IMG/VR virus record: IMGVR_UViG_3300047408_000236 | Coordinates: 1 to 61,298 of that record | Source: a virus | Length of the DNA stretch: 61,298 nt | Reading direction: 5' to 3' (one strand) | In this document: positions 12,352 to 61,213 of the stretch, in pieces | Layout of the letters: every line of letters begins with the position of its first letter | Position numbering within the stretch: position 1 is the first letter of the stretch | Notes under the pieces: generated by a model | Database searches by the model: none | The model's input: the letters and a program-made list of their open reading frames with translations, nothing else | Told to the model about the DNA's origin: nothing | Made by a program: the position numbers and the translations under genes

Positions 12352-12560
12352 CCAAACGGCGCGCGAAGGCGCCGGCACTCACGCCTCACGGGTTCGATCT
12401 GGCTTACGGGAAAGATTCGGCCGCGCAGCCGGGTATGGTCATGTTCAGAATCGCTAACGAGGGCGTAATCAAGTGGGAGCTGAACATGCCGCCCGAGGAG
12501 TTTCTGGTCCTGGCGCACGCGTTCGAGAACGTGGCTCGAGCCGTCGCCGCGGACGTGTAA
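12348..12560 (+). CDS. small hypothetical protein
   Basis: A 70-residue protein of unknown family with GTGA coupling to the gene before and TAATG coupling to the glycosyltransferase after. The segment IKWELNMPPEEFLVLAHAF looks like a small beta-hairpin/helix fold. No function can be assigned. Confidence 0.55.
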   Translation: MTKRRAKAPALTPHGFDLAYGKDSAAQPGMVMFRIANEGVIKWELNMPPEEFLVLAHAFENVARAVAADV

Positions 12561-25241: not shown

Positions 25242-25617
25242 TATCGCAACCTTCTCGCTCGGCGGCAATGATCTCAGCGCGTACACGACGAGCGTCACGC
25301 TGCACCTCGAACGCAACATCAGCGATATCAACCCTATCGGCGGCAACGCCATCAGCAAGCTGGTCGGACCCTACGGCGGCACGATCAGTCTTGAGGGTGG
25401 CTACGATCCGGTAGTCGACGCCATCCTGTCGGCGTACATGCTGGCTGCTACCCCGGCGTCGTTGGCGTTCGTCTATCGACCAGCAGGTTCAGGAGGTGGC
25501 ACTCGGGCAGTTGGGGGGAACTGCTATATGTCCACGTATGAAACGGCAACGCCGGGGGATGACACGGCCACGTGGACGGCGGAACTGGCAATCAATGGGA
25601 CTGTAACTAACGCGTAG
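25222..25617 (+). CDS. major tail (tube) protein
   Basis: A 131-residue beta-rich protein: SSGNIATFSLGGNDLSAYT at the start, an ISDINPIGG loop, and a central GGTISLEGGYDP hairpin, as in small siphovirus tube proteins. GAAAGGA precedes the ATG. Lies between the tail terminator and the chaperone/tape-measure genes, the expected place. Confidence 0.7.
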   Translation: MPFSSGNIATFSLGGNDLSAYTTSVTLHLERNISDINPIGGNAISKLVGPYGGTISLEGGYDPVVDAILSAYMLAATPASLAFVYRPAGSGGGTRAVGGNCYMSTYETATPGDDTATWTAELAINGTVTNA

Positions 25618-26651: not shown

Positions 26652-28829
26652 ATGCCTGTGCCAATTGCCGAGCTCTTCGTATCGGTGGGCGCCGATATCT
26701 CTGGTGCCACTCGCGGTCTGAGCCAACTGAACTCGCAACTTAACAATATTGGTAGTAATGCCGGAGCGGGGTTCAGTCTTGCGAACGTCGGCAAGAACCT
26801 CAGGACTATTGGGAGTCAGGCCAAGACCACGGGGTTCAACCTGACGCAAGACCTGACCGCGCCGATCCTGGGTATAAGTGCAGCGGTGTTCGGCGCAGGC
26901 TCAGATTTCGAGCACGCGTTTACCGAAGTCAAGCGTACGGTCACCGGTCTGGACGACACGCAACTCCAGGACTTGCGAAAAGATCTACTGGATATGAGCA
27001 AGACTCCCGCCGGCGGTCTGAAGACTGCTTCAGAACTGGCAGAGATTGCTGCGGTTGGCGGTCAACTCGGGCTCGCCGGCGGCGATATCAAGCAGTTCAC
27101 TTCGTTAGTAGCACGCCTTAGTTTGGCTACTAACCTGCCTTTTGCTCAGGTTGCTGACGATGTTGGCCGTGCGATCAACGTTCTCGGGTTGGCAAGTAGC
27201 GACTTCGAGCGGTTTGGGTCTGTCATTACTAAACTAGGAAATGACTTCGGCGGAACTGAAGCCGACATTCTGGAATTCAGCCGAAGGTTGGGCGGCACAC
27301 TGTCCTCACTCGGAGTGAAGCCGGCACAGATTGAGGCAATCGGCGCTGCCTTATCGGCGGCAGGGGTGCTTCCAGAGGCAGGCGCTACAGCGGTCAACCA
27401 GTTCTTCGTCGACATGGTCAATAGCCTGAATGAGACGAGTGGCGCATCTGAGGAGACGAAGCAGAAGCTCCAGAATTTGAAGGACACGATTTCTGATCTG
27501 AGCAGCAACCTCGAAGTAGCCTCGCTTCGTCAGAAAGAGTTTGGACGTAATACCCCGGCGTCAGTTGTCAAGGCCAATCAACTTGCGATACAGAAGTATC
27601 AGCGTGACCTTGGTCAGGCCAATACGAAGTTGGATGCGTTCTCGCAGACGTCGGCCGAAGGAACGCTGAATATCGGTGGCATGGCTAAGGTTGCCGGAGT
27701 CACTGATGAAGAATTCCGCAACCTTATCAAGACCGACCCAGCACGTGCCTTCGCGAGTTTCGTGGATGGATTACGTCGGATTCAACACTCCGCTGGCGGG
27801 CCAGCAGCGGTTACCAAGACGCTCGAAGAACTGGGTATCACAGGTGACCGACAGCGGGAAACGTTCCTCAACCTGGCCAACGCTCAACAAGATGTCACGT
27901 CGGCACTGAACATAGCCGAGCCTGCATGGAACAAGCAGACTGCGCTATCAGACGAAGTCGCTACCGCTATGGAGGACATGAAGAATCAGATCAAACTGGC
28001 TGCCAATGTCTTTCAAACATCACTGATCGATGCGTTCGACAAGCAAAGGCCAGCGATCCAGGCGCTCGTTGACCAGATCAATACCGACCTGATCCCAGCC
28101 TTCAAGAATCTAGTCGATTCGATTCCTGTATTGTCACCTGATGCGCTCAAAGCCCTTGGTGCATTGGCAGCGCTCGGTCCGGCGATTATTGCATTAGGTG
28201 CAGCGCTGTCGATCGTAGGTGCCATCATCCTTGTCCTGAGCGCTCCGTTAACACTGCCCATCATCGCCGTGCTCGCTGGCTTGGCGTTGGTGTTCGGGTT
28301 GGTCGCTGCAAATAAAGATACGATCAATAACGCCTTCGATAACATCGTCGCTGGAGCCAAGACGTGGGGCACCGATTTCAATAACGCGCTGCAGGCAGCA
28401 ATCCTTGGAGCGGGCTCGATCTTCTCGGCGTTCGGCACGTTCCTGGACGGCTTCTTCAATACAGTCATCTTGCCGATTTTCCAGCGATTCCCGGCCTGGA
28501 TTTTGGAACACGTGCTCGGCCCAGTCATTGGGCTACTCGAATTCTTACAAACTCTCGGGATCACCAGTATTCCCGGTGTAACCGCTGATCTCGGGGCAAC
28601 GATCGCCGATCTGAAGGCAAAGCAGACCGCTGCGGCGGCTACGGCCGGTGGTGCCCAAAACGCTATCAACGTGACGATCAATAACCCGATGGTCACGAGT
28701 CAGAATCTACTTGACCAGCTCGCGACCAATGTATCGAACGCAGTCACGACCGCGCTTATCACAGCTGAGAAGAGCGTGATCATCGCGCCACAGCCGTTGC
28801 CTGGCCATGTTCCGGGTACGCCGTTCTAA
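26652..28829 (+). CDS. tail tape measure protein
   Basis: A 725-residue protein, the longest in the tail cluster after the repeat protein at 37442. It has the TP901-type core (ELAEIAAVGGQLGLAGGDI, FAQVADDVGRAINVLGL), coiled coils around residues 260-330, and hydrophobic membrane-like segments at about 490-550. The C-terminal TINNPMVTSQNLL region is typical. By tape-measure scaling the tail should be near 110 nm, a siphovirus. Confidence 0.9.
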   Translation: MPVPIAELFVSVGADISGATRGLSQLNSQLNNIGSNAGAGFSLANVGKNLRTIGSQAKTTGFNLTQDLTAPILGISAAVFGAGSDFEHAFTEVKRTVTGLDDTQLQDLRKDLLDMSKTPAGGLKTASELAEIAAVGGQLGLAGGDIKQFTSLVARLSLATNLPFAQVADDVGRAINVLGLASSDFERFGSVITKLGNDFGGTEADILEFSRRLGGTLSSLGVKPAQIEAIGAALSAAGVLPEAGATAVNQFFVDMVNSLNETSGASEETKQKLQNLKDTISDLSSNLEVASLRQKEFGRNTPASVVKANQLAIQKYQRDLGQANTKLDAFSQTSAEGTLNIGGMAKVAGVTDEEFRNLIKTDPARAFASFVDGLRRIQHSAGGPAAVTKTLEELGITGDRQRETFLNLANAQQDVTSALNIAEPAWNKQTALSDEVATAMEDMKNQIKLAANVFQTSLIDAFDKQRPAIQALVDQINTDLIPAFKNLVDSIPVLSPDALKALGALAALGPAIIALGAALSIVGAIILVLSAPLTLPIIAVLAGLALVFGLVAANKDTINNAFDNIVAGAKTWGTDFNNALQAAILGAGSIFSAFGTFLDGFFNTVILPIFQRFPAWILEHVLGPVIGLLEFLQTLGITSIPGVTADLGATIADLKAKQTAAAATAGGAQNAINVTINNPMVTSQNLLDQLATNVSNAVTTALITAEKSVIIAPQPLPGHVPGTPF

Positions 28830-31863: not shown

Positions 31864-33687
31864 GTGCCTACTACGGCGACGTTTGGTTATGGCTGGGGTA
31901 ATCGGCAGTCGGCGTTTGGTGTCGGGCTTTATAAAGGAGCGCTGAGCGTCGGTGACCAGTTAGACCACACGACCCCGTTAGATCTAAGCGGCGTAGGTCG
32001 ATACAACATCGCCAAGATCGCAACCAGCGGCCTGACGACGATGCTTCTGACAACGAGCGGCGGGCTAGTGGTGGCTGGCTCCAATGAGCATGGCGAGTTC
32101 GGCAATGGGACAAGCGACACCTTGAGCCACACGTCGCTTATAAGCACAGGCATCGCCAGCGTGACCGACGTGAGTGTGGGTGGGTACGCCGGCGCAGTCA
32201 ACGGCAGCGATGTACTCGCGCTGTTTAGCAATGGTCACGTGGAAGGTTGGGGCTCAAACTTCTACGGCTCGCTTGGCTTTGGAGACACCACTGAACGACA
32301 CACACACGCTACGACCTGGCTGCCAGCCAGCCGTGGCGGACTGACCATTACGCAAGTCGAGTGTGGCTCGAATCACTGCGCGCTGCTGGACTCCAACGGA
32401 GAGGTATGGACTGCCGGCTCCAACAGTAACGGCCAGTTAGGTCGCGGAACTATCGGTGTCTCCGATCTGAGCTGGGGCAAAGCTACAGGCTTGACCGGGT
32501 TGGTGGTGACGCAGATTTCGTGTGGGCACGAAACGACTTTGTTTGTGCTTTCGACTGGCGCGGTGTGGGCGTGTGGAAATGGCCTCGACAACCGGCTCGG
32601 CCGGACGATTCGTCTCTTGCCTGGGTCACATACGGCTACGCCGACGCAGATCCCCGCGGTTGCCAACGCAGTTGAGGCACGCCAGGTAGGCGCGGTGTCG
32701 TGGTATCGAACCCTTACTGGCAGGCTGTTCTGGAATGGTGCGCCGGGAACAGACGGGGCGATAGATGTGGTGGGGAGTGGATCATTCGAGAGCGACTTCG
32801 GGTTGAATTTTCCCTTCGAGACAACCGCGCCAGGCTCGGGGGTGACGTATGCCAGGCTTGCCTACACTAGCGGCTATATAGACTTGTTGGGTGGCGAAAC
32901 CGGGATGATGGCCATTGGCTCGAATGGCAGGCTCTACACCCAGGGATCAGGCTTCTATTACGGTCCCGGCGACAACACCCAAACAAACCACTCTGTATTC
33001 ACTGAGTCGGCAGGTTTGGGTGCGGGGATTACGGCAGCGACCTTTGGCGGGGCACTGTATTGGGGAGTTACTGTCAACAATGTTGACAGTACTCTGGTGG
33101 CAACCTTTGCAGGCCAGGGGAAGGCGTTTCGATGGGTGCCTGGCGATCCTGCGGTTTCGGGTACCTGGATGAATCCTGGATTTGACGATAGCACGTGGGT
33201 TGCGCCGGTGAACGCAGCCTCTGGTACGAGCCCGGCGCCACCGTCGCCGCCGTACAGCGGTGACCTACTGTGGCCTCTTGCTATTGAGACGAACCAGAAC
33301 GCGTTCATGTACTACCGGTTCCACTTGAACGTGCCGGCTGGCACGTTGATCAGGACGGCGAGTATAAACGCACCGGCAGTCGATGGAACGTTTGCGACGG
33401 AGGCGGGCTTCCTGTCCGCTCCACCATTCGGCCCCATGCCATTCGACTCGTTCGTCAACGGAAATGGAGCAGCCCTTGGTTTAGTTGCCGGGACGTTTGA
33501 GACCCTGCTTGCCGTTGGTGCAGACAACCTGATCGCGGTCCTGGTTCCTGATATCTATGCGGCTCCTGTGCCGATTGCGACTGGCCGGTGGGCGTCGTTC
33601 GTGTTCCATCTGGCTTACAAAGGAGCAGCGGTGACTGGCGTTGTTGCAACGTCTATTGGTCGCAGTTCAGCCCAGATCATTGGGTGA
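31864..33687 (+). CDS. RCC1-like beta-propeller tail protein, likely receptor-binding
   Basis: A 607-residue protein. Residues about 10-390 hold at least five RCC1-type blades (GSNEHGEFGNGTSDT, GSNFYGSLGFGDTTE, GSNSNGQLGRGT, ACGNGLDNRLGR, GSNGRLYTQGSG). RCC1 propellers bind proteins or glycans; in a tail cluster this points to a receptor-binding tip. The C-terminal ~200 residues look like a galactose-binding-like sandwich. GTG start. An 11-bp palindrome lies at 33069-33091. Confidence 0.75.
   Translation: MPTTATFGYGWGNRQSAFGVGLYKGALSVGDQLDHTTPLDLSGVGRYNIAKIATSGLTTMLLTTSGGLVVAGSNEHGEFGNGTSDTLSHTSLISTGIASVTDVSVGGYAGAVNGSDVLALFSNGHVEGWGSNFYGSLGFGDTTERHTHATTWLPASRGGLTITQVECGSNHCALLDSNGEVWTAGSNSNGQLGRGTIGVSDLSWGKATGLTGLVVTQISCGHETTLFVLSTGAVWACGNGLDNRLGRTIRLLPGSHTATPTQIPAVANAVEARQVGAVSWYRTLTGRLFWNGAPGTDGAIDVVGSGSFESDFGLNFPFETTAPGSGVTYARLAYTSGYIDLLGGETGMMAIGSNGRLYTQGSGFYYGPGDNTQTNHSVFTESAGLGAGITAATFGGALYWGVTVNNVDSTLVATFAGQGKAFRWVPGDPAVSGTWMNPGFDDSTWVAPVNAASGTSPAPPSPPYSGDLLWPLAIETNQNAFMYYRFHLNVPAGTLIRTASINAPAVDGTFATEAGFLSAPPFGPMPFDSFVNGNGAALGLVAGTFETLLAVGADNLIAVLVPDIYAAPVPIATGRWASFVFHLAYKGAAVTGVVATSIGRSSAQIIG
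33069..33091. repeat. perfect 23-base palindrome inside the RCC1-like gene
   Basis: TACTGTCAACA and TGTTGACAGTA are separated by one base, a perfect 11-bp inverted repeat. The size and symmetry are like a regulator-binding site or a very short hairpin. No second copy was noticed. Confidence 0.8.
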
Positions 33688-42575: not shown

Positions 42576-44207
42576 GTGCGCCCGCTCATCACCGCACTGG
42601 TTGCGATCCTCGCGCTCGGCGTCGTGCTGGTCCCAGGATTGGTAGGCATGGCACAGACGGCGCCGCCAGTTACCTTCCTCGAAACGTTCGACTTCGAGCC
42701 AGGTGCGCCCGTGCACTACGTGCCGCCGGGCTGGGATGTGTCGGTGGTTGCGCACGAGAACGAAACCATCGAGCCGATGTGGGCAAACCACGGCCCGAAC
42801 TGCGAGCCGCCGGATGATACGTGGCCGGGCGGTACGCCGAACGGCGTACACAATCACTTCATCTCACTGGAGCCGCAGACAACTTTCGACTGCTCGAACC
42901 ACATCATGACCAGCATGAACGCAGGCTACGGCGCGGTCTATCTGACGCCGCCGGCCATGCTCGATTTCCGCAATGGCACGGCCACGCTCGAGTGGGACAT
43001 GTCGACCGAACGCACCAGCTCACGTGACTGGGTCGACATCATGATCTTGCCGTTCGACAACCTGATGGCGCTCAACATGGTCGACTTTCATACACCCACG
43101 GACGGCATTCAGGTCGAGCTGCAGGGCGGCGGCAATGTGTTCGCGGCACATACGTTTCTGCCCGCGTTCTCGTCTGCCTGCGGCCCGCTGAGTTACGCCA
43201 AGTCAGCGTCGATCTATTACTGCGGACTGCCCTTTGATGGTTATCACCAATGGGACATGATTCAGCAGTTGTACGGCTTGCATACGTCGGCCGCGCGCAG
43301 GGATCACTTCATCATCGAGCTTTCCAAGACCCATCTGCGCATGGGCTTTCGGCCAGCGAGCGCAGTCGGCTCTCCGTTCCATCCGTACTTCTACTGGATC
43401 GATTCAGACATTCCGGGCGGGCTTCGGTTCGACGAGGGTGTCGTGCAGCTCAACCAACGGGCGTACAACCCGCTCAAGCCGTGTGGTCCTGGCGTCGGTG
43501 ACGCGGGCGCGTCCACAGTCGGCTGGCAGGGGTCGTGCAGAGCAGCCACGTGGCACTGGGACAACGTGGCGATCAGTCCCGCTACGCCGTTCACCATCAT
43601 CCCTGGCGCGCGCAAGGTGCAGTCTGGTGGCAGTGTGACGTTCCCGCTGCCGGCGCCCGCGAACTCGTTCCTGAAAGCGGCCGGCTCGCGCGGGACCGAA
43701 TATTCGTTGAACGGTACGGCGTGGCAGCGGTTGCCGGTGGTCGGGCCTGAGGGACCGGTCGAGGCTGGTGATTCATTCTGGACGGCCGTGCCCGCGGGTA
43801 CTCAGACGGTGCGGTTCCGTAACGGCTCGGTCCAGGATGTGTATCTCTATAGCCGCACACCGCGGGATGCCATCCCGATTCCGACGCCATTGCCGGCTAC
43901 GGCTACTGCCATTGCTACACGAACGCCGGTGAGCACACCAACGGCTACCCCGACCGCGTTCGTGCCGCCTACGGCGACATCAACGCTTCCGCCAGCAACG
44001 GCAACGGCTGTTGCCGCGGCGACCGCGACGGCAGTAGTGGCTGCCACCGATACGCCGACACCAACGCCTGAACCACCGGTAGACAAGCCACTCACGCCTA
44101 CGGTGATGCCGACAACGTTCGAGTGTTATGCGCGTGCCGTCGAACGGCAGGATGGCGTCGATACCGAAATCCTGGTGTTGCAGCCCAGTACGTACTGCCG
44201 GCCGTAA
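42576..44207 (+). CDS. large secreted protein with Thr/Pro/Ala linker
   Basis: A 543-residue protein with a signal peptide (ITALVAILALGVVLVPGLVGM), a body of ~400 residues that looks lectin/LamG-like (TFLETFDFEPG, NGTATLEWDMS, RTSSRDWVDIM), and a long PTATPT-type linker (about 430-515) before a short Cys-containing end. Such linkers are typical of Chloroflexota extracellular proteins. It closes the late operon; it may act on or bind the cell surface. No catalytic site recognised. Confidence 0.6.
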   Translation: MRPLITALVAILALGVVLVPGLVGMAQTAPPVTFLETFDFEPGAPVHYVPPGWDVSVVAHENETIEPMWANHGPNCEPPDDTWPGGTPNGVHNHFISLEPQTTFDCSNHIMTSMNAGYGAVYLTPPAMLDFRNGTATLEWDMSTERTSSRDWVDIMILPFDNLMALNMVDFHTPTDGIQVELQGGGNVFAAHTFLPAFSSACGPLSYAKSASIYYCGLPFDGYHQWDMIQQLYGLHTSAARRDHFIIELSKTHLRMGFRPASAVGSPFHPYFYWIDSDIPGGLRFDEGVVQLNQRAYNPLKPCGPGVGDAGASTVGWQGSCRAATWHWDNVAISPATPFTIIPGARKVQSGGSVTFPLPAPANSFLKAAGSRGTEYSLNGTAWQRLPVVGPEGPVEAGDSFWTAVPAGTQTVRFRNGSVQDVYLYSRTPRDAIPIPTPLPATATAIATRTPVSTPTATPTAFVPPTATSTLPPATATAVAAATATAVVAATDTPTPTPEPPVDKPLTPTVMPTTFECYARAVERQDGVDTEILVLQPSTYCRP

Positions 44208-44228
44208 CCATCTTCCTCCCCCCACGAG

Positions 44229-44280
44229 ACAGCCCCTGTCTGGTCCTCTACGGACTGGGCAGGGGCTGTTTTCGTTTTTA
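44229..44280 (+). terminator. strong intrinsic terminator of the late operon
   Basis: ACAGCCCCTG (44229-44238) pairs with CAGGGGCTGT (44260-44269); an inner GTCC/GGAC helps the stem. TTTTCGTTTTTA follows. It separates the late forward operon from the convergent reverse operon. Confidence 0.85.
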
Positions 44281-44284
44281 TGGG

Positions 44285-45892
44285 CTAGTCGGCCGTCGCG
44301 TGGCCGCGCGTACGGTGCATGCGCTGGATGTTGACCTTCTTGGTGACCGGCTCGCCGTGGTACGGGTTGACGCAGTGCCGCGGACACGATCGTCTGTGAT
44401 CCCACTCGCCCACCGGGAACCAGCGGCCATTGGCGATCTCCCACACGACCTGATGGGCCGGCCGGTTGTTCTTCGGGCGGCCGTCAGGATACGCCCAGCG
44501 CTGGACGCCGTAGCCGTCCTTGTCGATCGAGCCTGTCCACAGCCAGCAGTCGCCTTGCGATCGGTCAATCTTGCCCAGCACCTCGCGCACCTCGATCGGC
44601 GGTAAAGGCAGCGCCGGTCGCTCAGGCTCGGGTGCCCGCCCTATCTGCTCGATGACCACCCTACGCCCGTAGGGAGGCTCTGTAGGAATAGGCGTAGGGG
44701 GTGGAACGTAGGAAGATTTGGGCGGCTTGGGGAACTTGACGAGGCGACGGATCCTGCCGTGGGCGATGTAGGCAGTGAAGTCCTGCATATTGGCGGGGTC
44801 GAGGTCGCGGTAGTCGAGGCCGAGCCGGTCAGCGGCTATTTTCTGGAGTGGCTTGAGTTCCTGGGCGAAGTAGACGCGGGTGCTGATATTGGCACTGATG
44901 CCGTCGTTGAGATCCGATTCGGCCTGGGTGAGGTCGTCGACTGCGATTTTGCGGCGGCGGCCGGCCCGGTGGAATGGTTCTGCGAGGTCGATGCGTTCGC
45001 CGAGTTGGCCGGCTTCTTCGAAGATCAAGCGAAAGCCGCCGGGTACGAGTGACGCGCAGCGTTTGGCTTCGGCCAGACCGAGTGCAACAACGTCGCCGCC
45101 GAGTGATGGGTGATCGAAGGAATCGTTGTCGAGCAGGACGCTGATGCCGCGGTTCAGGAGGTCGGCAATGTCGACGCCGTCGGGGCCGATGCTAGTACCG
45201 AACTGGTCGGCCAGGTCGAGGAATCTGGCCACCCAACCGGCACAGACGGTGCGCAGCTCGCGGTCCGACTTGACGGTCTGCTCGAGCCGCTCGCCAATCA
45301 AGCGTAGGGTCCGTTCTTCTCCGCGGGCGTCCAGTTGACGGATCACGTCGGCGGTGGCACGGCGGGCAGCCCGTTTCCAGGCGCCTACGCCACCCGAGCG
45401 GAATACTTCGGTGAGTCGTTCGGCTACTTCGGTTGGTGAGCCAATCAGAAAGTTGACCGGGTTGGTGCTGACGCACGCGGTCCAGCGGAAGCCGTGCAGG
45501 CGCACTACGGCGTCGACCAGTGGGTCAGACAGATCAGGTGTGGCTACCAGTGCCACTCGTTTGCCGTCGAGCCTGACGGTTGCAACGGATGCGCTCTTGC
45601 CGGCTCCAGTTGGCCCGAGCCAGGCGCAGTGTGGCTTTCTTGTCCGATCGATGACCAGCCCATCGACCTTCATCAGATCGTGTGGCGGGCGAAGGCTCCA
45701 CCACCAGCGGCGGAACAGCGGCGTATTGGTTGGACGTCGGACTATGACGTCCTTGGCGGAACCGTTGTCAATCTTGCCACGATCATTGCCAGGCATGATG
45801 ACAAACAAAAGCCCTGCTACTCCGAGAAGCAGCAGGGCTGTACGCGTCTGATCGTTCTGTTGGAGAAACTCAGCCAGTGATGTCGGGTTCAC
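44285..45892 (-). CDS. VirD4/TraG-like ATPase fused to an HNH nuclease
   Basis: A 535-residue protein. An N-terminal membrane helix (ALLLLGVAGLLFVIM) precedes a T4 coupling-protein-like ATPase with Walker A GPTGAGKS (93-100) and a Walker B-like LIFEEAG. The C-terminus from residue 449 is an HNH domain: CWLWTGSIDKDGYG, AHQVVWE, then DH (498-499), N509 and H512. Coupling proteins bring DNA to a secretion channel; a fused nuclease is not a standard arrangement. ATGA overlap with the VirB4 gene. Confidence 0.75.
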   Translation of the reverse strand: MNPTSLAEFLQQNDQTRTALLLLGVAGLLFVIMPGNDRGKIDNGSAKDVIVRRPTNTPLFRRWWWSLRPPHDLMKVDGLVIDRTRKPHCAWLGPTGAGKSASVATVRLDGKRVALVATPDLSDPLVDAVVRLHGFRWTACVSTNPVNFLIGSPTEVAERLTEVFRSGGVGAWKRAARRATADVIRQLDARGEERTLRLIGERLEQTVKSDRELRTVCAGWVARFLDLADQFGTSIGPDGVDIADLLNRGISVLLDNDSFDHPSLGGDVVALGLAEAKRCASLVPGGFRLIFEEAGQLGERIDLAEPFHRAGRRRKIAVDDLTQAESDLNDGISANISTRVYFAQELKPLQKIAADRLGLDYRDLDPANMQDFTAYIAHGRIRRLVKFPKPPKSSYVPPPTPIPTEPPYGRRVVIEQIGRAPEPERPALPLPPIEVREVLGKIDRSQGDCWLWTGSIDKDGYGVQRWAYPDGRPKNNRPAHQVVWEIANGRWFPVGEWDHRRSCPRHCVNPYHGEPVTKKVNIQRMHRTRGHATAD

Positions 45893-47550
45893 TGATGAGC
45901 ATTAGCCACAGCAGCATCCCCGCTGCCGCGAACACGGCCACCCACCATCCCAGGAACGCTACCGCTCCAACCAGAAGCCCGATCTTCGCTAGTCGCATTG
46001 CCCACGCCATGACGGACCTCCCTCGGGTCAGTGGTTATTTTCTGATGCTCTTCCTTTGACGCCTGAATGTCAACTGGTACGACCATGCCGCTCACGTCCA
46101 GTAGTGCCTGGCCGCGAGCTGCGCTGCGCAGGAACCGGCGCGCCTCATCGCTCAGTCGGACCTTCTCGGCCAGCAAGTCGCCGTCTGGCCCGTTTTGCTT
46201 CAGATACACCTTGATGGCCGAGTTGTTCAGGACAGCGAGCCCCTGGTCGCTCGTCAACAATTCCTGTACCTGCTGCGATGCTATCCAGAGACTCAGATAG
46301 TGGTGGCGTCCGATGCGCGCTATTTCCTCGATGAGACTGGCCAGGGCTGGATCACGCAGGAGTGACCACAGCTCGTCAAGAATAAGAAGTCGTGGCCGAG
46401 GATCACGCTTTGCCGTGTCCCACAACTCGGACACAAACGCTCGCAAGCGGTCTGCACGTTCGCTATAGGGTACGTCTGCCAGGTTGAAGGTTTGGGCGTG
46501 GGCGACACCGGCGTATTCCGCGGGACTTCGTTGCTCAACAATCAGCACCTCTACATCTTTGAGCCGGCCAGCCAGTAGCTTGAGAAAGTAACTCTTCCCG
46601 GCGCCGACCTTGGCCAGCACAATGCCGCCGAAGCTTTCTAGACTCGGGTCGAACGGATCGAGCCGGACCTCCATTGAGCCAGTATGCGTCGTACCCAGCG
46701 GCGCGCCATTCGTGTGGCGCACCGTGGCTGGTTGGAACGGCCATGTTGACGCAACCGAAGTACAGTCGAGCGTGTGCCATGCACCGAGCAGACGACATAC
46801 GCCTGTGGCGCTAGTAGCCTCAAGGCCACGATCGTGCTCCCATGTGGCGGGCCGGACATCCCCGAGTGCTAGCCCGATCTCGTGTTGCAACGTCGCTACT
46901 CGGCTCATCAGTAGCGTGCGCTCGTGAGCTCGTACGGTGAACGCAATCGCCACTTTTACTGGCCGATCCTTGTGCGCGATCAGGTCTTCGCGGACCCGGC
47001 GCGAGTCGCGTGTGGTGAGCATGTCGCCCGCATCATTCGAGTCCTGATGCCGTTTCTGTTGGAGTTTGAGCTTACGCGCGATCCAGGCCGAGTCTTGCGC
47101 CTCGATGTGAATGCCGACGTCAACCGGTAAGTCACCGGCGAGCGCATTGCCGAGCCAGCCTGGCGCTACCTCCCGCGGCCAGCGGCGCAGGACGAGTGAC
47201 GCGCAGTAGTCATCGCCCGCAAATACACAGTCGGACCAGGTGAGTGTTGCTGGTTCGATATCCGCGGTGGCGATATAGCATCGAAGCCCTACCCCTTCGA
47301 GTGTGCGCGCGAGTGTACGGGTGCGCCACCCACTCTCGTCATCATCAAGGACTGCCAGCCAACGACGCTCAAGCTGTGGTGGCTGAGGCCACGTCGGATG
47401 TGTCTCGATGGTCCTTGCCTGTCCGATGAGCTGGATCGGATGGCTCAGGCCCATGAGTGCGCGTGCGAACGCTTCCATTTGATCGGACCTGGCGCTCTGC
47501 GACTCGAGCGCGTAGTTTGTCGTTGGTTGCAACGCGAGTACGCTGCGCAT
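45889..47550 (-). CDS. VirB4/TraC-like secretion ATPase
   Basis: A 553-residue ATPase. Walker A KVGAGKS (314-320), Walker B LLILDELWSL (388-397) and SLWIASQQVQELL afterwards are the VirB4 pattern. The N-terminal part (SVLALQPTTNYALESQ) also fits but begins about 20-30 residues late, so the true start is doubtful. The stop of the PrgI-like gene sits in the same frame directly before its ATG. VirB4 powers assembly of type IV systems. Confidence 0.8.
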   Translation of the reverse strand: MRSVLALQPTTNYALESQSARSDQMEAFARALMGLSHPIQLIGQARTIETHPTWPQPPQLERRWLAVLDDDESGWRTRTLARTLEGVGLRCYIATADIEPATLTWSDCVFAGDDYCASLVLRRWPREVAPGWLGNALAGDLPVDVGIHIEAQDSAWIARKLKLQQKRHQDSNDAGDMLTTRDSRRVREDLIAHKDRPVKVAIAFTVRAHERTLLMSRVATLQHEIGLALGDVRPATWEHDRGLEATSATGVCRLLGAWHTLDCTSVASTWPFQPATVRHTNGAPLGTTHTGSMEVRLDPFDPSLESFGGIVLAKVGAGKSYFLKLLAGRLKDVEVLIVEQRSPAEYAGVAHAQTFNLADVPYSERADRLRAFVSELWDTAKRDPRPRLLILDELWSLLRDPALASLIEEIARIGRHHYLSLWIASQQVQELLTSDQGLAVLNNSAIKVYLKQNGPDGDLLAEKVRLSDEARRFLRSAARGQALLDVSGMVVPVDIQASKEEHQKITTDPREVRHGVGNATSEDRASGWSGSVPGMVGGRVRGSGDAAVANAHQ

Positions 47551-47671
47551 TCAGGGCTTGCTCCAGAAGTGCCGAAGCCTGCTGCTCCAGTGAACGCCAC
47601 TCGCGCGCGGCAATCTCGGACAACGTGTCAGTGTCCGTACCATCACGGACCGTAACCTTGAGTTCTGCCAT
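47369..47671 (-). CDS. overlapping frame, possible small protein or VirB4 N-terminus
   Basis: A 100-residue reverse frame whose first ~60 residues (LKVTVRDGTDTDTLSEIAA, REWRSLEQQASALLEQAL) look like normal helical protein, while the last 40 are low-complexity and overlap the real VirB4 frame. It may be a separate small gene, or hold the missing VirB4 N-terminus joined by a frameshift. Confidence 0.35.
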   Translation of the reverse strand: MAELKVTVRDGTDTDTLSEIAAREWRSLEQQASALLEQALNAQRTRVATNDKLRARVAERQVRSNGSVRTRTHGPEPSDPAHRTGKDHRDTSDVASATTA

Positions 47672-47991
47672 TGCTCCCGCCATCGTGGCCAGATGACCAC
47701 GTGAAAGTAGTGCCCAGCGGCTGCTAGCCACTCGTGTATGCGGCGCATGCCGAGCTTGCTGCGTAACCCGCTAGCGATCGCACCAACGCCTGACACGTCG
47801 CACGCCGGCTCACCGGTCAGGGTCCACGCGCCAACGCATAGCACGATGGGTACGGCCCACCACCACGAGTAACCGTTGTTGATCAGGTACCAGATGCTCG
47901 CTACCCCGAGCGCGAGCATCACGAAGTCCCAGAACGGGGTACGCCGGTCCAGTTCGGTCGGAACAATGATGACTGGTGAGCGTTCGTCCAC
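47551..47991 (-). CDS. PrgI/VirB3-like membrane protein
   Basis: A 146-residue protein with two membrane helices (FVMLALGVASIWYLI and WWAVPIVLCVGAWTL) and a cytoplasmic C-terminus. The place directly upstream of VirB4 and the two-helix form fit PrgI/VirB3 partners of T4SS. Its last ~40 residues overlap another plausible frame. GTG start directly after the pilin stop. Confidence 0.65.
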   Translation of the reverse strand: MDERSPVIIVPTELDRRTPFWDFVMLALGVASIWYLINNGYSWWWAVPIVLCVGAWTLTGEPACDVSGVGAIASGLRSKLGMRRIHEWLAAAGHYFHVVIWPRWREQWQNSRLRSVMVRTLTRCPRLPRASGVHWSSRLRHFWSKP

Positions 47992-48216
47992 TCAGGCGTG
48001 TGGTGCCGCGCCGGTGACCAGTGCAGCGATAGTCTGCGCGCCGAGCACGATCGCGGCGCCAATCAAGCCGCCAGTGATCCAGTCTTTCGCTGCTTTCTTA
48101 TCGCCGATGAGCCACTGGTAGCCACCAACAGAGATGGCTAGTAGCAGGACGGCGGGCAGGATGAACTGCTGCGCGCTCGTCAATGCTGTTCGGATAGTTG
48201 CGCCGACTGTTTCCAC
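47992..48216 (-). CDS. VirB2/TrbC-like pilin or membrane subunit
   Basis: A 74-residue protein with two hydrophobic helices (FILPAVLLLAISVGGYQWL and GLIGAAIVLGAQTIAALV) joined by a polar loop (GDKKAAKD), the VirB2 pattern. GTG start with GGGAAGAG upstream. Lies between the NlpC and PrgI-like genes, as in Gram-positive T4SS operons. Confidence 0.7.
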   Translation of the reverse strand: METVGATIRTALTSAQQFILPAVLLLAISVGGYQWLIGDKKAAKDWITGGLIGAAIVLGAQTIAALVTGAAPHA

Positions 48217-48227
48217 TCTTCCCTCGT

Positions 48228-48329
48228 TTACTTGAGGAACGTGGCATGGGCAATCACGAGGATGCTCATGCCACAGGCGATGATCATGGAAAGCGCTAGT
48301 GTCCAGCCGATGAAGTACCTCCTAGCCAT
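48228..48329 (-). CDS. 33-residue membrane peptide in the T4SS operon
   Basis: Short frame with one membrane helix (TLALSMIIACGMSILVIAHA). It overlaps the end of the NlpC gene by 8 bases (ATGGCTAG), in keeping with the operon's coupling, and precedes the pilin. Too short to name. Confidence 0.5.
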   Translation of the reverse strand: MARRYFIGWTLALSMIIACGMSILVIAHATFLK

Positions 48330-48864
48330 GACGGACCCGGCCGAACCCGACGAGGTGTGCGCGCCAGAACGGGTCCGTATAGGACTGGCGGCCAACAACA
48401 GGCTCAATCGCGCTGACCATCCAACCCGGCGCGACGACTATCCCCACATGGGTTATTCGATCGGGGGAGCTGTAGGTTCGCTGGAAGAAGACCAGGTCGC
48501 CAACGTCGGGGGTAGTGACGAGCGGTACGTCGTTGTACTGAGTTTGTGCGGTACGCGGCAGTGAGTAGCCGAGTGTGCGGAACACCGCTACCGTGAGGCC
48601 CGAGCAGTCGATGCCGCGTCGGTCATTGCCACCGAAAACGTAGGGCACGCCCATGTATGGCTGAATAGCGGCCATAAGTGCTGATGTGTCGCTGAGTAGC
48701 GGTCCTGCTGGTGCGACTTGCGCGGGTGCGGGCACGGTGCCCGCTGGCTGCAGGTTCGAGCCGGCGAACCAAAACGTCGACCAGGCTTGTGAATGCAAGC
48801 CGACTGCTGGTGCGAGGATGAACATGGCGAACACGGCGAGGCCGACACCGATCCAGCGCATCAT
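48322..48864 (-). CDS. NlpC/P60 peptidoglycan hydrolase of the T4SS
   Basis: A 180-residue, membrane-anchored enzyme: N-terminal helix (IGVGLAVFAMFILAPAVG), Pro/Ala linker, and an NlpC/P60 domain with catalytic Cys87 (IDCSGLTVAVF), His139 (ITHVGIVV) and VGDLVFF. Such enzymes open peptidoglycan for monoderm type IV machines, like VirB1. ATG 48864 is chosen because it starts at the signal anchor and gives an ATGA overlap with the VirB6-like gene. Confidence 0.8.
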   Translation of the reverse strand: MMRWIGVGLAVFAMFILAPAVGLHSQAWSTFWFAGSNLQPAGTVPAPAQVAPAGPLLSDTSALMAAIQPYMGVPYVFGGNDRRGIDCSGLTVAVFRTLGYSLPRTAQTQYNDVPLVTTPDVGDLVFFQRTYSSPDRITHVGIVVAPGWMVSAIEPVVGRQSYTDPFWRAHLVGFGRVRHG

Positions 48865-49802
48865 GCGCGAAACAACAATCTCCGCAGGATCAGGAACTTG
48901 CCAATACCGCCACCACCTCCACCGCTGTGGTGGCTCGCACCGAACATGCTCGGCATCTTGCGCGCCAGCAGCAGCACCGCGATGCCGAGCACGGTGCCCA
49001 CAAAGCCTGTGCCAATCCCACCGAGCACCGGCGCCAGCCGAAGACAGATAACGATCGCGATCTGGCTGAACAGCGTGCCCGCAGCCAGCGAGGTGTAGCG
49101 GCTCGCCCACGAGTCGGTCTGCTCGAGCGACTTGGTCACGAGCGCGAGTGGGCCGACGATGATCAAAATGTCAATCAGCGCAAGCCTGAATACCACGGAG
49201 AACACCAGCATCAAGGCCACGACCGCATAGACGATCACGAGCACCGACGGCCCGAAGGCTTCGACGGGATTGCTCGTGAGTGTGGGTACTGTCATGTGTG
49301 GTCGGACGATGCTGGCCAGGGACGGCGCGGCAATGGCGGCACAGATGCCGTTGTTCAGGCTGATGCCGATCTCCCACCACATCAGGTTGAGCCCACTCAC
49401 GACCGCGCCATAGGCAAGGCGGCCGTAGGAGGCGCCCTGATGGAGCATGTGGCCGAACGCCGCGGCAACGACGAACAGGACGACCAATGACATTGCTACA
49501 GCAGTAGCGGTCGTGGCTAACGACCGGACGGTGTCATTACGGAACGTCCACTCGGGTGGGGTGGTCGTGAAAATGTCGGCCATGTTGATGGCATCGTTGG
49601 CCCACTGCACGAGCGTGGGTGCGACGAGCTGCACAACGATGGCATTCGAGCTCTCTACAGATGCATCGGCTATGGCTTCAGGGTCTGGCGGTGGCGCCTC
49701 GACGGTCACATGGTTCTGAATGACCTGGATTGGCTGAGGCTGCGGTTGTGGCAGGGGCGGGCCGATCTGCAGGAAGAGGACGGCGAGTATCGCCAGTATC
49801 AC
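48861..49802 (-). CDS. VirB6/TrbL-like polytopic membrane protein
   Basis: A 313-residue protein: signal-like N-terminus, Pro/Gln-rich segment, then about six membrane helices (for example VAMSLVVLFVVAAAFGHML and VLVIVYAVVALMLVFSVVF) and a Gly-rich C-terminal region. This is the TrbL/VirB6 shape; VirB6 lines the channel. First gene of the reverse operon, GTG start. Confidence 0.7.
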   Translation of the reverse strand: MILAILAVLFLQIGPPLPQPQPQPIQVIQNHVTVEAPPPDPEAIADASVESSNAIVVQLVAPTLVQWANDAINMADIFTTTPPEWTFRNDTVRSLATTATAVAMSLVVLFVVAAAFGHMLHQGASYGRLAYGAVVSGLNLMWWEIGISLNNGICAAIAAPSLASIVRPHMTVPTLTSNPVEAFGPSVLVIVYAVVALMLVFSVVFRLALIDILIIVGPLALVTKSLEQTDSWASRYTSLAAGTLFSQIAIVICLRLAPVLGGIGTGFVGTVLGIAVLLLARKMPSMFGASHHSGGGGGGIGKFLILRRLLFRA

Positions 49803-49859: not shown

Positions 49860-49891
49860 GAGAGGGCTCCTGTATCGTTTACGTACAGGGA

Positions 49892-50092
49892 ATGCGACTG
49901 ACGCGTCTAAAGGACCGGCGCGAGCGGGCCCTGCTGACTCAACATGAGTTGGCTGAACGCGCCGGTGTCAGTCGCGCCACGATCGCGGCAATCGAGGCTC
50001 AGAAGGCCGAGCCGCAGTTTTCCACAATCCGCAAACTTGCGGAGGCACTGAAGTGCGAACCAGCCGACCTGATGGAACCCGAACAGACCTAA
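49892..50092 (+). CDS. XRE-family HTH regulator
   Basis: A 66-residue, single-domain regulator: LTQHELAERAGVSRATIAAIE is a clear helix-turn-helix, followed by the usual FSTIRKLAEALKCEPADLM. It is transcribed away from the T4SS operon and may control it and/or its own operon. ATG 49892 is chosen to begin at the domain; an inverted repeat sits just upstream. Confidence 0.8.
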   Translation: MRLTRLKDRRERALLTQHELAERAGVSRATIAAIEAQKAEPQFSTIRKLAEALKCEPADLMEPEQT

Positions 50093-52202: not shown

Positions 52203-53129
52203 TTAGAGGTTCCAGCGAGCCGACAGTGATGCGGTGTCGGCGATCTCGTTGACCGTGCGGTCACTCAGCGTAATGTAATCGCTTAAAACGTCCCGACTCA
52301 TCTGGCCGAGTCTCGAGCGGAGCTGGATCTCGGCGCCCGGTCGCTGCGCCAGGAACTCCGTCGCAGCAGAATGCCGCGTCCGATGCGGGTGAGCGTTCGG
52401 TACGCGAGCAGCCGTGCCCATCTCCGTGAAAATCTCGCGAACCCGGCGTGGCGAGAGCGGTAAGCGCTCACGTGTGGTGAATAGCGCATCGATGCCGGCG
52501 CGCGCCTCGCGCACCTTCAGCCAGTTTCGAAGCGCCGACAGGCTTGGGCCGCCATCACGCCGAGCCTGGACGCGAAAAATCACTTTGCGCGGATGGCCGT
52601 TCTTCGTGCGGCGAAACAGGATCGAGCCCTCGACCAGGTCGACGTCGGCGACGCTTGCGCTACAGAGCTCGCCCACGCGACAGCCGGTATCGAACAGCAT
52701 CAACAGCACCGCTCGATCGCGAATCGGATTGGCGCCACATGCCGCCGCTTGTACCAACCGGCGCGCTTCGTCTTCGGTGAACGGCTTGCGATGAATCTTC
52801 TGGACGCGTGGCACCTTGAGCCGAGCCAGCGGATCGAACGGGTAGACGTCGTTTTCCCACAGGAACCGCGCCCAGGTCTTGAGCGTGGTCACTCCCTGCT
52901 TTTCGGTGACCAGCCCACCACGGCGACCGTGGGACCGGCCGCGGAGCCAGGCCTGCCACTCGCGCACGAACTGCGGGTTGAGTGCGTCGAGCGTGGGCTC
53001 GACCTCGTGCTCGACCAGGAACGCCAGGAAACTGTCCTGGTAAATGCGGTACAGGCGCAGCGTCATCGGGCTGCGGTTCAATCGCTCCAAGCTACGCCGG
53101 TGAAACTCAGCGGCTTCGATGAGGTCCAC
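52203..53129 (-). CDS. tyrosine recombinase / integrase
   Basis: A 308-residue site-specific recombinase. The N-terminal SAM-like arm domain (TLRLYRIYQDSFLAFLVE) is followed by the catalytic set: R151 (GCRVGEL), H249-x-x-R252 (HRTRH) and Y285 (LSDYITLSD). The usual second His of the LGH motif is Gln (LGQM). GTG 53129 is chosen because GGAGGG lies 6 bases upstream; the frame runs back to TTG 53177. It should integrate the phage or resolve circles. Confidence 0.85.
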   Translation of the reverse strand: MDLIEAAEFHRRSLERLNRSPMTLRLYRIYQDSFLAFLVEHEVEPTLDALNPQFVREWQAWLRGRSHGRRGGLVTEKQGVTTLKTWARFLWENDVYPFDPLARLKVPRVQKIHRKPFTEDEARRLVQAAACGANPIRDRAVLLMLFDTGCRVGELCSASVADVDLVEGSILFRRTKNGHPRKVIFRVQARRDGGPSLSALRNWLKVREARAGIDALFTTRERLPLSPRRVREIFTEMGTAARVPNAHPHRTRHSAATEFLAQRPGAEIQLRSRLGQMSRDVLSDYITLSDRTVNEIADTASLSARWNL

Positions 53130-55029: not shown

Positions 55030-55571
55030 CTGATCTGCTCGTGGCGAGCAAGGACTTTATGCGCGCCAGCGACCGGCTCAGCACGCTCTGGCAATTGACC
55101 GAGGATTTCGAAGCGTTGGTAGCGCTGCTCGAGGATCCGGATGCCGATCCCGATGCCATCGATGCCGAGATGCAACGCGTGGCCGGCGACATCAAGACCA
55201 AGGCGTTCGGTGTGGCATCCGTCATCAATGCCCTCGAAGGGCTCGCAGCGTTCCAGAAGATGAACGCTGACCGACTGGCCGTCAAGGCTAAGGCCAACCA
55301 GGCGCACGCTGACCGACTGCGTTCGTACGCCCACGCGTGTATGCGCGCTATCGGTGTGGATCGACTCGAAACCGGGCAGTACACGTTGGCGATCAGGACC
55401 AATCCGCCGAGCGTGGTTGTGCAGGACGCCGCGGCCATACCGAACGAGTTCAACCGGACCAAGATCACGGTCGAACCGGACAAGACAGCGATAAAGGATC
55501 ACTGGAAGCAGACCGGCGAGCTGGTTCCGGGCGTTGACATCGTGCGTACGGAAAGCCTGCGAATTTCATGA
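55026..55571 (+). CDS. Siphovirus Gp157-like protein
   Basis: A 181-residue protein: N-terminal helix/coiled coil (LSTLWQLTEDFEALVALLED), DIKTKAFGVASVINAL, then the conserved IRTNPPSVVV...IPNEFNRTK end. This is the Gp157 family of siphovirus early regions, often beside SSB and recombination genes; its exact role is not settled. ATGA overlaps on both sides. Confidence 0.8.
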   Translation: MTDLLVASKDFMRASDRLSTLWQLTEDFEALVALLEDPDADPDAIDAEMQRVAGDIKTKAFGVASVINALEGLAAFQKMNADRLAVKAKANQAHADRLRSYAHACMRAIGVDRLETGQYTLAIRTNPPSVVVQDAAAIPNEFNRTKITVEPDKTAIKDHWKQTGELVPGVDIVRTESLRIS

Positions 55572-56116
55572 TCTGGCTTGCCCTTTATGTCGCGACGATT
55601 TTCGGAGCTAACTGGGCGATCACCACGTTCGGTCTGGTACCAGTTGGCTTCGGACTGATGGCACCAGCAGGCGTGTACTTCGCCGGGCTCGCATTCACTT
55701 TTCGCGATCTGACGCAGGACTCACTTGGCCGACGCTGGACCTTCGTTGCCATCCTACTGGGCGCGGGACTCTCCGGGTTCCTGAGTGGCCCGCTAGCGCT
55801 CGCGTCAGGCATTGCCTTCCTGGTGTCCGAGACATGCGACCTCGTCGTGTACACACCGCTGCGCGAGCGCCATTGGCTATCTGCTGTGGCGTTATCGAAC
55901 ACGGTCGGGCTGGTCGTCGACTCCGCTTTGTTCCTGATGCTCGCGTTCGGCTCGCTCGAGTTCCTCGCCGGGCAAATCGTCGGCAAGTTCGAGATGACCG
56001 TGCTCGCGGTCGTGCTGTTGTGGGGGTGGCGTCGCTTTGCTCTATCTCAGCGGAGTCATCAACCCACTGGTATCGCGCACGGCGCCGCCGTGGGTGGGCT
56101 GGATGTTGAGTCCTAA
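55568..56116 (+). CDS. VUT/YhhQ-family queuosine-precursor transporter
   Basis: A 182-residue membrane protein with about five or six helices. APAGVYFAGLAFTFRDLTQD, LASGIAFLVSETCDLVVYTPL and VVDSALFLMLAFGSL are VUT/YhhQ signatures; members import preQ0/preQ1. The next gene is DpdA-like, so imported 7-deazaguanine is probably put into phage DNA. Confidence 0.75.
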   Translation: MIWLALYVATIFGANWAITTFGLVPVGFGLMAPAGVYFAGLAFTFRDLTQDSLGRRWTFVAILLGAGLSGFLSGPLALASGIAFLVSETCDLVVYTPLRERHWLSAVALSNTVGLVVDSALFLMLAFGSLEFLAGQIVGKFEMTVLAVVLLWGWRRFALSQRSHQPTGIAHGAAVGGLDVES

Positions 56117-59192: not shown

Positions 59193-61213
59193 ACGTAGTG
59201 GCACCGGCAGAGCTCGCCAGGCGACCCCAGTGGGTGGCTTGGAAACTCGTACCGCGAGCTGGCGAGCCCAAGCCGACCAAGGTGCCGTTCGATGCACATA
59301 CCGGCCGCCACGCCTCGACAACGGACCCAACCACGTGGTCGTCCTTTGAAGAGGCCGCGGCCTTCTGTGCCGCACACGATTGGGCGTCTGGCGTCGGCTA
59401 CGTGCTGTCCGCCGACGACCCGTATACCGGCGTGGATCTCGACGGTTGTCGGGATCCACACTCCGGCCGCATCGAGCCGTGGGCCAAAGCCATCATCCGC
59501 CGGCTCAACTCGTACACCGAGATCAGCCCGTCTGGTACCGGCCTGCGAATCTTCATCCGCGGCGAGTTGCCGCCATACGGCCGACGTAAAGGCCACATCG
59601 AGATCTACTCGCATGCTCGCTTCCTGACCATCACCGGCGATCGCTACCTGGCTGCACCAGACAGCATTCAGGAACGCGCAGTCGAATTGCTCGAATGGCA
59701 CCACGAGGTCTTCGGCGACCCGCCAGGACCGCGCCAGAACGGCCACGCGCGCTCACCCGTCCAGCTCGCGGATGCCGATTTGTTGCTCAAGGCGCGTGAT
59801 GCTGCGAACGGACAGAAGTTCTGGGCGCTATGGAACGGCGACTACTCAGCCTACAACTCGCCGTCGGAGGCCGACGAAGCACTCGTTAGCCTCCTCGCCT
59901 TCTGGTGCGGGCCTGACCCGGGCAGAATCGATCAACTCTTCCGATCGAGCGGACTCATGCGCGACAAGTGGGATCGGCAGGACTATCGCGATCGCACTAT
60001 CAACACGGTACTCGACGGCAAGACCGAGTACTACCGCGGCAAAAGCGCTAGCCCAGCGCTCGTCGTGCCAGAGCATATCGACCCTGTGACCGGCGAGGTC
60101 ATCTACGAACGGCGATTCCGATTCCTGACCGCGGACGAGCTCAAACACCGCCCCGATCCCGAATTCATCATCGACCATATCCTGCAGAAAAATACTCTTG
60201 CATTGATCGTCGGCGCCCAGGAATCGTACAAAACCTTTCTCGGTCTAGACATGGCCATGGCCGTCTCTGACGGCGGTGAATGGCAGGATCGGCCCGTTCA
60301 GCAGGGTACCGTCGCGTACATCAGTGCCGAGGGCGGCTCGGGTATCAAACTGCGTATCGAAGCATGGGAAACCGAGCACGAGCAACGCGTCGACCATTGC
60401 TACTTCCTGGCCGACCAGGCACCGCAATTCCTCGACCGCGGCAAGGGTGGCGACGTCGAAGAACTGCTGCTATCGCTCGGCGATCTACCAGCTACACCAA
60501 CGCTCATCTTCGTCGACACACTGGCTCGAACCATGGTCGGCGGTGACGAGAACTCGGCTCAGGATATGGGCCTGTTCATTGCATCGGCCGAGCAGATCAG
60601 ACAGGCTACCGGCGCTACCGTGGTGATGATCCACCACAACAACAAGGAGGGCTCAGCTCGCGGTAGCACCGCGCTCCTGGGCGCCGTCCATACCATCATC
60701 GAATGTTCGCGCGAACAGGGCCGAGATAACGTCATCGTAAAATGCGGCAAACAGAAGGATACCGACCATTTTGACACGATGCTGCTCTCGAGCAGTGTCA
60801 TCCAATTGGAAGGCGAAGAACGAGCCTCGCTCGTTCTTCGCATGCGCCAACGCGCTAACCTGCTGTTCAATCCGATCAGTAACCAGGCGATCCTGGCATT
60901 GGACACACTGGCAGAACTTGATAACCCTGCCTTCGCCGAATGGCGGGATGCCACAAATATCTCTAAGTCGGGATTCCAGCGGGCAAGAGTCGACCTTCTA
61001 AAAGGAGGGTACGTGGACCATAACGCCGACCGATATAGCGTTTCTTCTCTAGGACATACGTTCAGGTCCAACAGGGTCCAGACAGGGTCCATGGACCCTA
61101 TGGACCTTAGGGTCCAAAAAGGCCCCGTAAGGGAGGGGCCTTTGGACCCAGCCATCCCCGATGGACCCACCCCTTCAGGGTCCAACCCAGATTTGGACCC
61201 ATTGCCGTGGTAG
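59189..61213 (+). CDS. primase-polymerase / RepA-like helicase
   Basis: A 674-residue replication protein. Residues 1-175 are a prim-pol domain (GVDLDG at 81-86, SPSGTGLRIFIRG, HIEIYSHARFLTITGD). A linker domain (about 195-280) is NrS-1-like. From 318 it has a RecA-like ATPase: GAQESYKT (342-349; SYK replaces the usual GxGK) and LIFVDTLART (439-448). The last ~60 residues encode a run of GGGTCCA-type repeats. The gene runs across the circular junction. Confidence 0.85.
   Translation: MNVVAPAELARRPQWVAWKLVPRAGEPKPTKVPFDAHTGRHASTTDPTTWSSFEEAAAFCAAHDWASGVGYVLSADDPYTGVDLDGCRDPHSGRIEPWAKAIIRRLNSYTEISPSGTGLRIFIRGELPPYGRRKGHIEIYSHARFLTITGDRYLAAPDSIQERAVELLEWHHEVFGDPPGPRQNGHARSPVQLADADLLLKARDAANGQKFWALWNGDYSAYNSPSEADEALVSLLAFWCGPDPGRIDQLFRSSGLMRDKWDRQDYRDRTINTVLDGKTEYYRGKSASPALVVPEHIDPVTGEVIYERRFRFLTADELKHRPDPEFIIDHILQKNTLALIVGAQESYKTFLGLDMAMAVSDGGEWQDRPVQQGTVAYISAEGGSGIKLRIEAWETEHEQRVDHCYFLADQAPQFLDRGKGGDVEELLLSLGDLPATPTLIFVDTLARTMVGGDENSAQDMGLFIASAEQIRQATGATVVMIHHNNKEGSARGSTALLGAVHTIIECSREQGRDNVIVKCGKQKDTDHFDTMLLSSSVIQLEGEERASLVLRMRQRANLLFNPISNQAILALDTLAELDNPAFAEWRDATNISKSGFQRARVDLLKGGYVDHNADRYSVSSLGHTFRSNRVQTGSMDPMDLRVQKGPVREGPLDPAIPDGPTPSGSNPDLDPLPW
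61064..61200. repeat. iteron-like cluster and cruciform, candidate replication origin
   Basis: Ten copies of GGGTCCA/TGGACCC (eight exact) in both orientations at about 61064, 61074, 61085, 61092, 61101, 61110, 61143, 61162, 61178 and 61194. GGGTCCATGGACCC (61085-61098) is a perfect palindrome. GGTCCAAAAAGGCCCC and GGGGCCTTTGGACC (61111-61148) form a large stem. All within the 3' end of the helicase gene. Confidence 0.7.

Follow-up and report, generated by a model that had tools for sequence, protein, structure and literature searches.

Results

Gene content of the operon

We analyzed a complete IMG/VR virus record (IMGVR_UViG_3300047408_000236; 61,298 nucleotides, hereafter the window), in which positions 44285–49802 are occupied by a tightly coupled minus-strand operon whose products resemble a type IV secretion system (T4SS). 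The operon lies between the last late-side gene (42576–44207) and the regulator/integrase region. Its genes encode, in order, a VirB6/TrbL-like membrane protein, an NlpC/P60 wall hydrolase, a 33-amino-acid (aa) transmembrane (TM) peptide, a VirB2/TrbC-like pilin, a PrgI-like protein, a VirB4 ATPase, a 46-aa TM open reading frame (ORF), and a VirD4-like ATPase with an HNH nuclease domain (Table 1). ORF analysis, profile searches, and relatives place every gene named in a preliminary description of this DNA at the position, strand, and order given there. As also reported there, no VirB7, VirB9, or VirB10 homologue was seen among the operon genes; TM topology is as expected for a T4SS. These data indicate that the operon very probably encodes a phage-borne T4SS-like apparatus.

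Table 1. Features of the window and of related phage records
Record	Feature	Position	Strand	Details
Window	Terminator-like hairpin, strong	44227..44271	+	20-pair stem, T-rich tail; between converging late genes and T4SS operon
Window	VirD4-like coupling ATPase with HNH domain	44285..45892	-	One N-terminal TM; C-terminal HNH at about residues 440–530
Window	Two-TM ORF	45870..46010	-	46 aa; overlaps VirB4 3' end; good Shine-Dalgarno; upstream GAGGGAGG
Window	VirB4 ATPase	45889..47550	-	553 aa
Window	PrgI/VirB3-like membrane protein	47551..47991	-	146 aa; immediately upstream of VirB4
Window	VirB2/TrbC-like pilin	47992..48216	-	74 aa; two TM helices
Window	Single-TM peptide	48228..48329	-	33 aa; ORF and one TM
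Window	NlpC/P60 wall hydrolase	48322..48864	-	180 aa; N-terminal TM; VirB1 place; Pfam NLPC_P60 E = 4e-20
Window	VirB6/TrbL-like polytopic membrane protein	48861..49802	-	313 aa; first operon gene; GTG start; several TM segments
Window	Inverted repeat	49869..49889		CCTGTA-N9-TACAGG; between regulator and operon; candidate operator
Window	Small XRE-type regulator	49892..50092	+	Divergent from operon
Window	Tyrosine integrase	52203–53129	-	Pfam Phage_integrase E = 3e-24; 76–80% identity to G008 and G006 integrases
Window	Terminase large subunit (TerL)	3544–4968		PHROGs/Pfam
Window	Portal	9832–11331		PHROGs/Pfam
Window	Head protease	13748–14575		PHROGs/Pfam
Window	Major capsid	14583–15908		PHROGs/Pfam
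Window	Tail tube	25222–25617		PHROGs/Pfam
Window	Tape measure	26652–28829		PHROGs/Pfam
Window	Primase-helicase	59198–61213		PHROGs/Pfam
G007	Carrier, IMGVR_UViG_3300036772_000211			64,960 bases; 127-base terminal repeat, circular like window
G006	Carrier, 3300015190_000002			54,757 bases
G008	Carrier, 3300006028_000013			58,419 bases
L038	Carrier, 3300044742_000087			26,231-base fragment
Phage G (JN638751)	T4SS-like run, gp150–gp157 plus gp146	85059–93838		L002, 5845–6669 and 7757–14624

VirB4 and the VirD4-like ATPase

VirB4 matched the NCBIfam profiles conju_CD1110 (E = 3e-19, the best match), TraC (2e-15), and VirB4_CagE (1e-11), with scores that lie below the full-length equivalog cut-offs. 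A profile built from three phage VirB4 proteins matched a solved VirB4 structure (PDB: 4ag5; E = 2e-13), and tblastn with the window protein found gp155 of Bacillus phage G (JN638751; E = 1e-38, 24% identity over 93% of the length). The label of terminase large subunit attached to this protein through phrog_2666 was rejected because the window has a separate TerL and VirB4 families match; the phrog_2666 annotation looks wrong or mixed for the VirB4 branch. A ribbon-helix-helix-like reading of the ORF at 47369–47731 was likewise set aside, since relatives confirm the PrgI and VirB4 frames that it overlaps.

The VirD4-like protein has a Walker A (GPTGAGKS) and a Walker B (LIFEEA) motif, both kept in four homologues, with a helical insert between them. 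The preliminary description had named it VirD4-like, with which the motifs, the position, and low-confidence fold matches are consistent, but it missed the HNH domain formed by the last ~90 residues (PHROG 826, E = 6e-20). The domain is fused to VirD4 in all four complete homologues (4/4), across which residues C449, H480, H499, C507, H512, and N521 are invariant, and Pfam HNH_3 scores above its cut-off in the G007 and G008 proteins. The AlphaFold model of VirD4-HNH is poor (predicted local distance difference test score, 47); its non-noise fold matches to HerA, DndH, TrwB, and Cag-beta are only supportive. An alignment search with VirD4-HNH found no relative among GTDB genomes, and a plasmid search with the ATPase part gave no match. 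Both ATPases were found with T4SS partners, rather than as members of FtsK or other families lacking such partners, the outcome that the preliminary description had named as damaging to its proposal.

Channel, pilin, and wall-hydrolase proteins

The VirB6/TrbL protein matched Pfam TrbL_4 at E = 8e-4, below the curated cut-off. Its homologues are 46% (G008), 38% (G007), 29% (G006), and 20% (phage G gp153) identical; gp153 itself scores above the TrbL_4 cut-off (E = 2e-11), and the alignment to it supports identity as a VirB6-like pore protein. The pilin matched Pfam TrbC (E = 6.5e-5) and T4SS_pilin (E = 5e-4), both under the curated cut-off, and is 40% identical to its L038 homologue. These weak pilin and VirB6 matches are strengthened by the agreement of homologues in the relatives and in phage G.

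For the PrgI-like protein, no significant profile match was found in the database, nor was hhalign to known PrgI significant. The protein is 48% identical to g8_24 over its full length, and its VPTEL-type N-terminal motif is common to G007, G008, and L038. We infer a PrgI/VirB3-like identity from position, TM content, motif, relatives, and a PrgI-like N-terminus that is fused to the G006 VirB4. By profile search, the preliminary assignments of VirB4 and VirB6 therefore held, the latter weakly and with the backing of relatives, and PrgI and the type IV coupling protein (T4CP) gave no significant match.

The wall-hydrolase slot holds NlpC/P60 in the window and L038, SLT_3 in G007 and G008, and a C39-like protein in G006, the last called by eye and without a Pfam match. 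The role of this slot is kept while different hydrolase families fill it. G007 has a 34-aa TM peptide at the place of the 33-aa peptide, and L038 has a 47-aa TM gene directly after VirB4, equivalent to the 46-aa ORF of the window.

The operon is an accessory cassette of several phages

Single-protein VirB4 scans of viral and genome contigs gave no match; scans with VirD4 and VirB4 found the operon in four related viral contigs (G006, G007, G008, and L038). The compact monoderm-type operon that had been described in a tailed, integrase-bearing phage thus recurs in at least four other environmental phages, and all five contigs have different IMG/VR sample numbers. In every carrier the operon adjoins lysis, XRE-regulator, or integrase genes, with a small, divergently oriented XRE regulator beside it in the window, G006, and G007. 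The carriers differ in their head and tail modules. Identity to the window is 65% (G008), 61% (L038), 56% (G007), and 24% (G006) for VirB4, and 63% (G006), 56% (G007), and 45% (G008) for VirD4-HNH. The operon is under purifying selection with intact frames: the ratio of nonsynonymous to synonymous change (pN/pS) is 0.38–0.64 at high synonymous divergence (dS), comparable with TerL (0.50).

Four contigs with integrases 78–82% identical (L040, L041, L043, and L044; fragments of 31–40 kb) give no VirB4 match over the whole of each record, and their stretch from the integrase to the lysis/tail genes is without the operon. The operon is therefore an accessory cassette, and its carriers are temperate soil phages.

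The VirB4 tree groups the window, G008, G007, and L038 in one clade (100/100). G006 falls outside it, placed weakly next to a protein of a Chloroflexota plasmid (82/84). A single clade of phage VirB4 proteins was unsupported, with G006 and phage G falling elsewhere at weak support. The G006 VirB4 (L024, 2618–4945), which carries the fused PrgI-like N-terminus, is thus of another lineage than the VirB4 of the remaining carriers, yet the G006 VirD4-HNH is close to that of the window. Exchange of parts with retention of the whole set is an argument that the machine works. G006 also has a ParB-like gene (19692–20627) between its integrase and the T4SS operon.

A parallel operon in phage G

In the GenBank annotation of JN638751, only gp155 is named as VirB-like. 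It lies in a run that, like the window operon, combines a pilin, small TM proteins, TrbL/VirB6, a protein in the VirB3 place, VirB4, a T4CP-like protein, and an HNH gene. The pilin is gp150 (T4SS_pilin, above cut-off), the small TM proteins are gp151 and gp152, gp153 is the TrbL_4 match, and gp154 is the small protein in the VirB3 place. The weakly T4CP-like gp156 is directly followed by the HNH gene, gp157. Phage G differs from the window in being a jumbo phage, in gene order, in having the HNH as a separate gene, and in having a Replic_Relax gene (gp146; 4.8e-26) four genes before the pilin gene.

Regulatory surroundings and genome context

Expression of the operon probably takes place in lysogens and starts in the promoter region that adjoins the XRE regulator, as judged from the operon's position, its own strand and orientation, the regulator, and the strong hairpin towards the late genes. 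The inverted repeat might serve as an operator, but this is a guess, and its sequence is not kept in relatives.

The record ends share an exact 127-base direct repeat, which makes the assembly circular, with a length of 61,171 bp. Searches with PHROGs and Pfam identify a tailed temperate phage, with genes for terminase, portal, capsid, tail, and integrase, and lysis genes are also present; the preliminary picture of full head, tail, and lysis genes, with the operon beside the regulator and integrase, is accurate. A sister genome (G001; IMGVR_UViG_3300005618_000021) has phage flanks homologous to those of the window. Its contig breaks off at precisely the T4SS stretch on either side, once within the XRE regulator, and another contig from this phage (G002) stops there too. 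With these breaks, the sister genome counts as evidence in neither direction. The GC content of the operon, overall and at third codon positions (GC3), is inside the range of the window's phage genes. Given the terminal repeat, the phage-like GC and GC3, the homologous flanks in G001, and the recurrence of the operon in four more contigs, a chimera in the window is very unlikely.

Elsewhere in the window, sugar-nucleotide genes between TerL and portal (5121–9801; epimerase, SDR, GHMP kinase, nucleotidyltransferase, SIS isomerase, and transaldolase) look like a heptose-type glycan pathway. Glycosyltransferases and DegT-type aminotransferases lie amid the head genes (12560–13681 and 16365–22539) and are kept in G001. 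The tail region encodes an RCC1-like repeat protein (31864–33687), and the early region encodes a Vut_1 family transporter of the vitamin-uptake type (55568–56116).

Discussion

A candidate route for DNA export from lysogens

We hypothesize that the operon encodes a minimal, envelope-spanning T4SS of the monoderm type that is made in lysogens and exports DNA processed by the HNH domain, and we put the probability of this whole chain at roughly 0.45. We expect a monoderm host. VirB6, VirB2, and PrgI/VirB3 would form a membrane channel, the wall hydrolase would open the cell wall, and VirB4 would power assembly of the apparatus. VirD4-HNH would dock the substrate and bring it to the channel. The substrate would be DNA nicked or cut by the HNH, such as prophage DNA in its excised or integrated form, passed to a neighboring cell, and the outcome would be a second, particle-free route of phage spread. 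DNA is the likeliest substrate because the coupling ATPase carries a fused nuclease in every complete homologue and no relaxase was found; the fused nuclease tilts the candidate functions towards DNA processing. Export of DNA with the HNH is also favored because the gene after the T4CP-like one in phage G encodes an HNH, and we count the Replic_Relax gene near the phage G operon towards DNA transfer. The archaeal Ced/Ted systems are a precedent for DNA transfer without a relaxase (PMC9905601). The broader proposal, that temperate tailed phages own a relaxase-free, HNH-driven conjugation machine and spread as virions and also by passing DNA directly from cell to cell, is tentative and, in our estimate, somewhat doubtful.

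Several observations weigh against DNA export. The relaxase-type families PF03432, PF08751, and PF02486 are absent from the window, G001, G006, G007, and G008, with positive controls, as is PF13814, which was found in phage G. Mob_Pre (PF01076) was also negative in the carriers, but its control gave no match either, and this test is uninformative. A Pfam scan of ten early-region window proteins found no relaxase, and no oriT was found. The preliminary statement that no relaxase was seen thus stands for the first four families and not for Mob_Pre; because no relaxase was found, we do not class the operon as a conjugative element. The VirB8-type family PF12642 is absent from the same five genomes (control positive), and no NTF2-like single-TM protein was seen in the operon; in the Patescibacteria, VirB8 is described as elusive too (PMC12102498). 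The VirD4-like protein has no significant family match; its assignment uses sequence motifs, gene position, and a fold modeled at low confidence. Its HNH domain resembles the common homing-type HNHs of phages, and the central HNH Asn is present in the window copy only; for these two reasons, the domain may be a passenger on the VirD4 gene that does not serve it. The L038 contig ends before the VirD4 C-terminus, and the start of its VirD4 looks different. A 51% homologue of the XRE regulator occurs in L044, a contig without the operon.

Other functions of the apparatus

The apparatus could instead let the lysogen pass a protein effector to rivals or kin, with the HNH acting on substrates or forming part of the effector. 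Nucleases are common interbacterial toxins, and some T4SSs deliver proteins. T4SSs without relaxases exist and are thought to have been co-opted for other functions, as in the Patescibacteria (PMC12102498). We nevertheless consider effector delivery unlikely: no separate effector/immunity gene pair was recognized beside the operon, an HNH on the coupling ATPase would be expected to stay in the donor, and the phage G operon has a Replic_Relax gene in its vicinity.

An improbable alternative is a device for superinfection exclusion or against plasmids, in which a complex in the envelope, together with a nuclease, blocks or cuts incoming DNA. The accessory, lysogen-side position and the combination of a membrane complex with a nuclease would suit such a device, but a pilin, a wall hydrolase, and a pore protein exceed what exclusion requires. 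VirB4 is weakly similar to HerA-type and mad8 defense ATPases in PADLOC; we rejected these matches as generic to the ATPase superfamily, since VirB4 families match far better.

DNA import, supplying new DNA or repair templates to the lysogen or phage, has a low probability. The relaxase-free VirB2/VirB4/VirB6 core resembles that of Ced/Ted (PMC9905601), and VirB4 gives a weak CedB match, but bacterial conjugation families score far better, and a VirD4-type coupling ATPase and a wall hydrolase lie outside the Ced/Ted core.

Finally, although the breaks in the sister contig on both sides of the T4SS stretch could be taken to suggest a chimeric assembly, or a captured conjugative element in decay without present function, the circular record, the phage-like GC, the recurrence in five contigs of different sample numbers, the intact frames, and the purifying selection make either reading highly implausible.

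Implications

On the sequence evidence, the operon would work like a minimal T4SS, a known type of machine. Transfer by phages and transfer by conjugative elements are treated as distinct modes. We found no description of a T4SS operon in a tailed phage in the open-access full-text literature, and a 2025 review of T4SSs contains no word beginning with "phage" (PMC12857230). The presence of the cassette in circular tailed-phage genomes with varied head and tail modules, together with the phage G parallel, indicates that phages recruit T4SSs repeatedly. Some phages may therefore own a second way to reach neighboring cells. Questions are raised of whether prophages spread without particles, whether lysogens inject their neighbors, and whether an HNH domain can replace a relaxase. 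VirB4 is often used as a mark of conjugative elements, and our findings bear on how viral contigs are separated from these in metagenomes.

Comparison with known systems

The streptococcal "conjugative prophage" Phi1207.3 is a tailed prophage whose transfer is reported to fit the operational definition of conjugation; its description mentions neither a relaxase nor a T4SS, and the mechanism is called unknown there (PMC4260502). Archaeal Ced/Ted systems share a relaxase-free VirB2/VirB4/VirB6 core with the window but are chromosomal genes of archaea, and that core has no VirD4-like protein or wall hydrolase (PMC9905601). The T4SSs of Patescibacteria have a monoderm VirB4/VirB6/VirB3/VirB2 core, mostly without a relaxase, but belong to cellular genomes rather than phages, and no HNH-fused coupling protein was met in the sections of that study consulted (PMC12102498). 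Compared with the MPF_FATA T4SSs (pCF10, pIP501, CD1110-type, and Embleya/Streptomyces plasmid loci), the window operon is carried by a tailed phage, has much smaller genes, a putative T4CP fused to an HNH, and a VirB2-like pilin, and was found without VirB8 (PF12642) or a relaxase. It shares with MPF_FATA systems VirB4, a VirB6-like protein, and a wall hydrolase, and has a putative T4CP-like ATPase and a putative PrgI/VirB3-like protein; as in those systems, no VirB7, VirB9, or VirB10 was seen in the operon, and its VirB4 best matches the CD1110 family.
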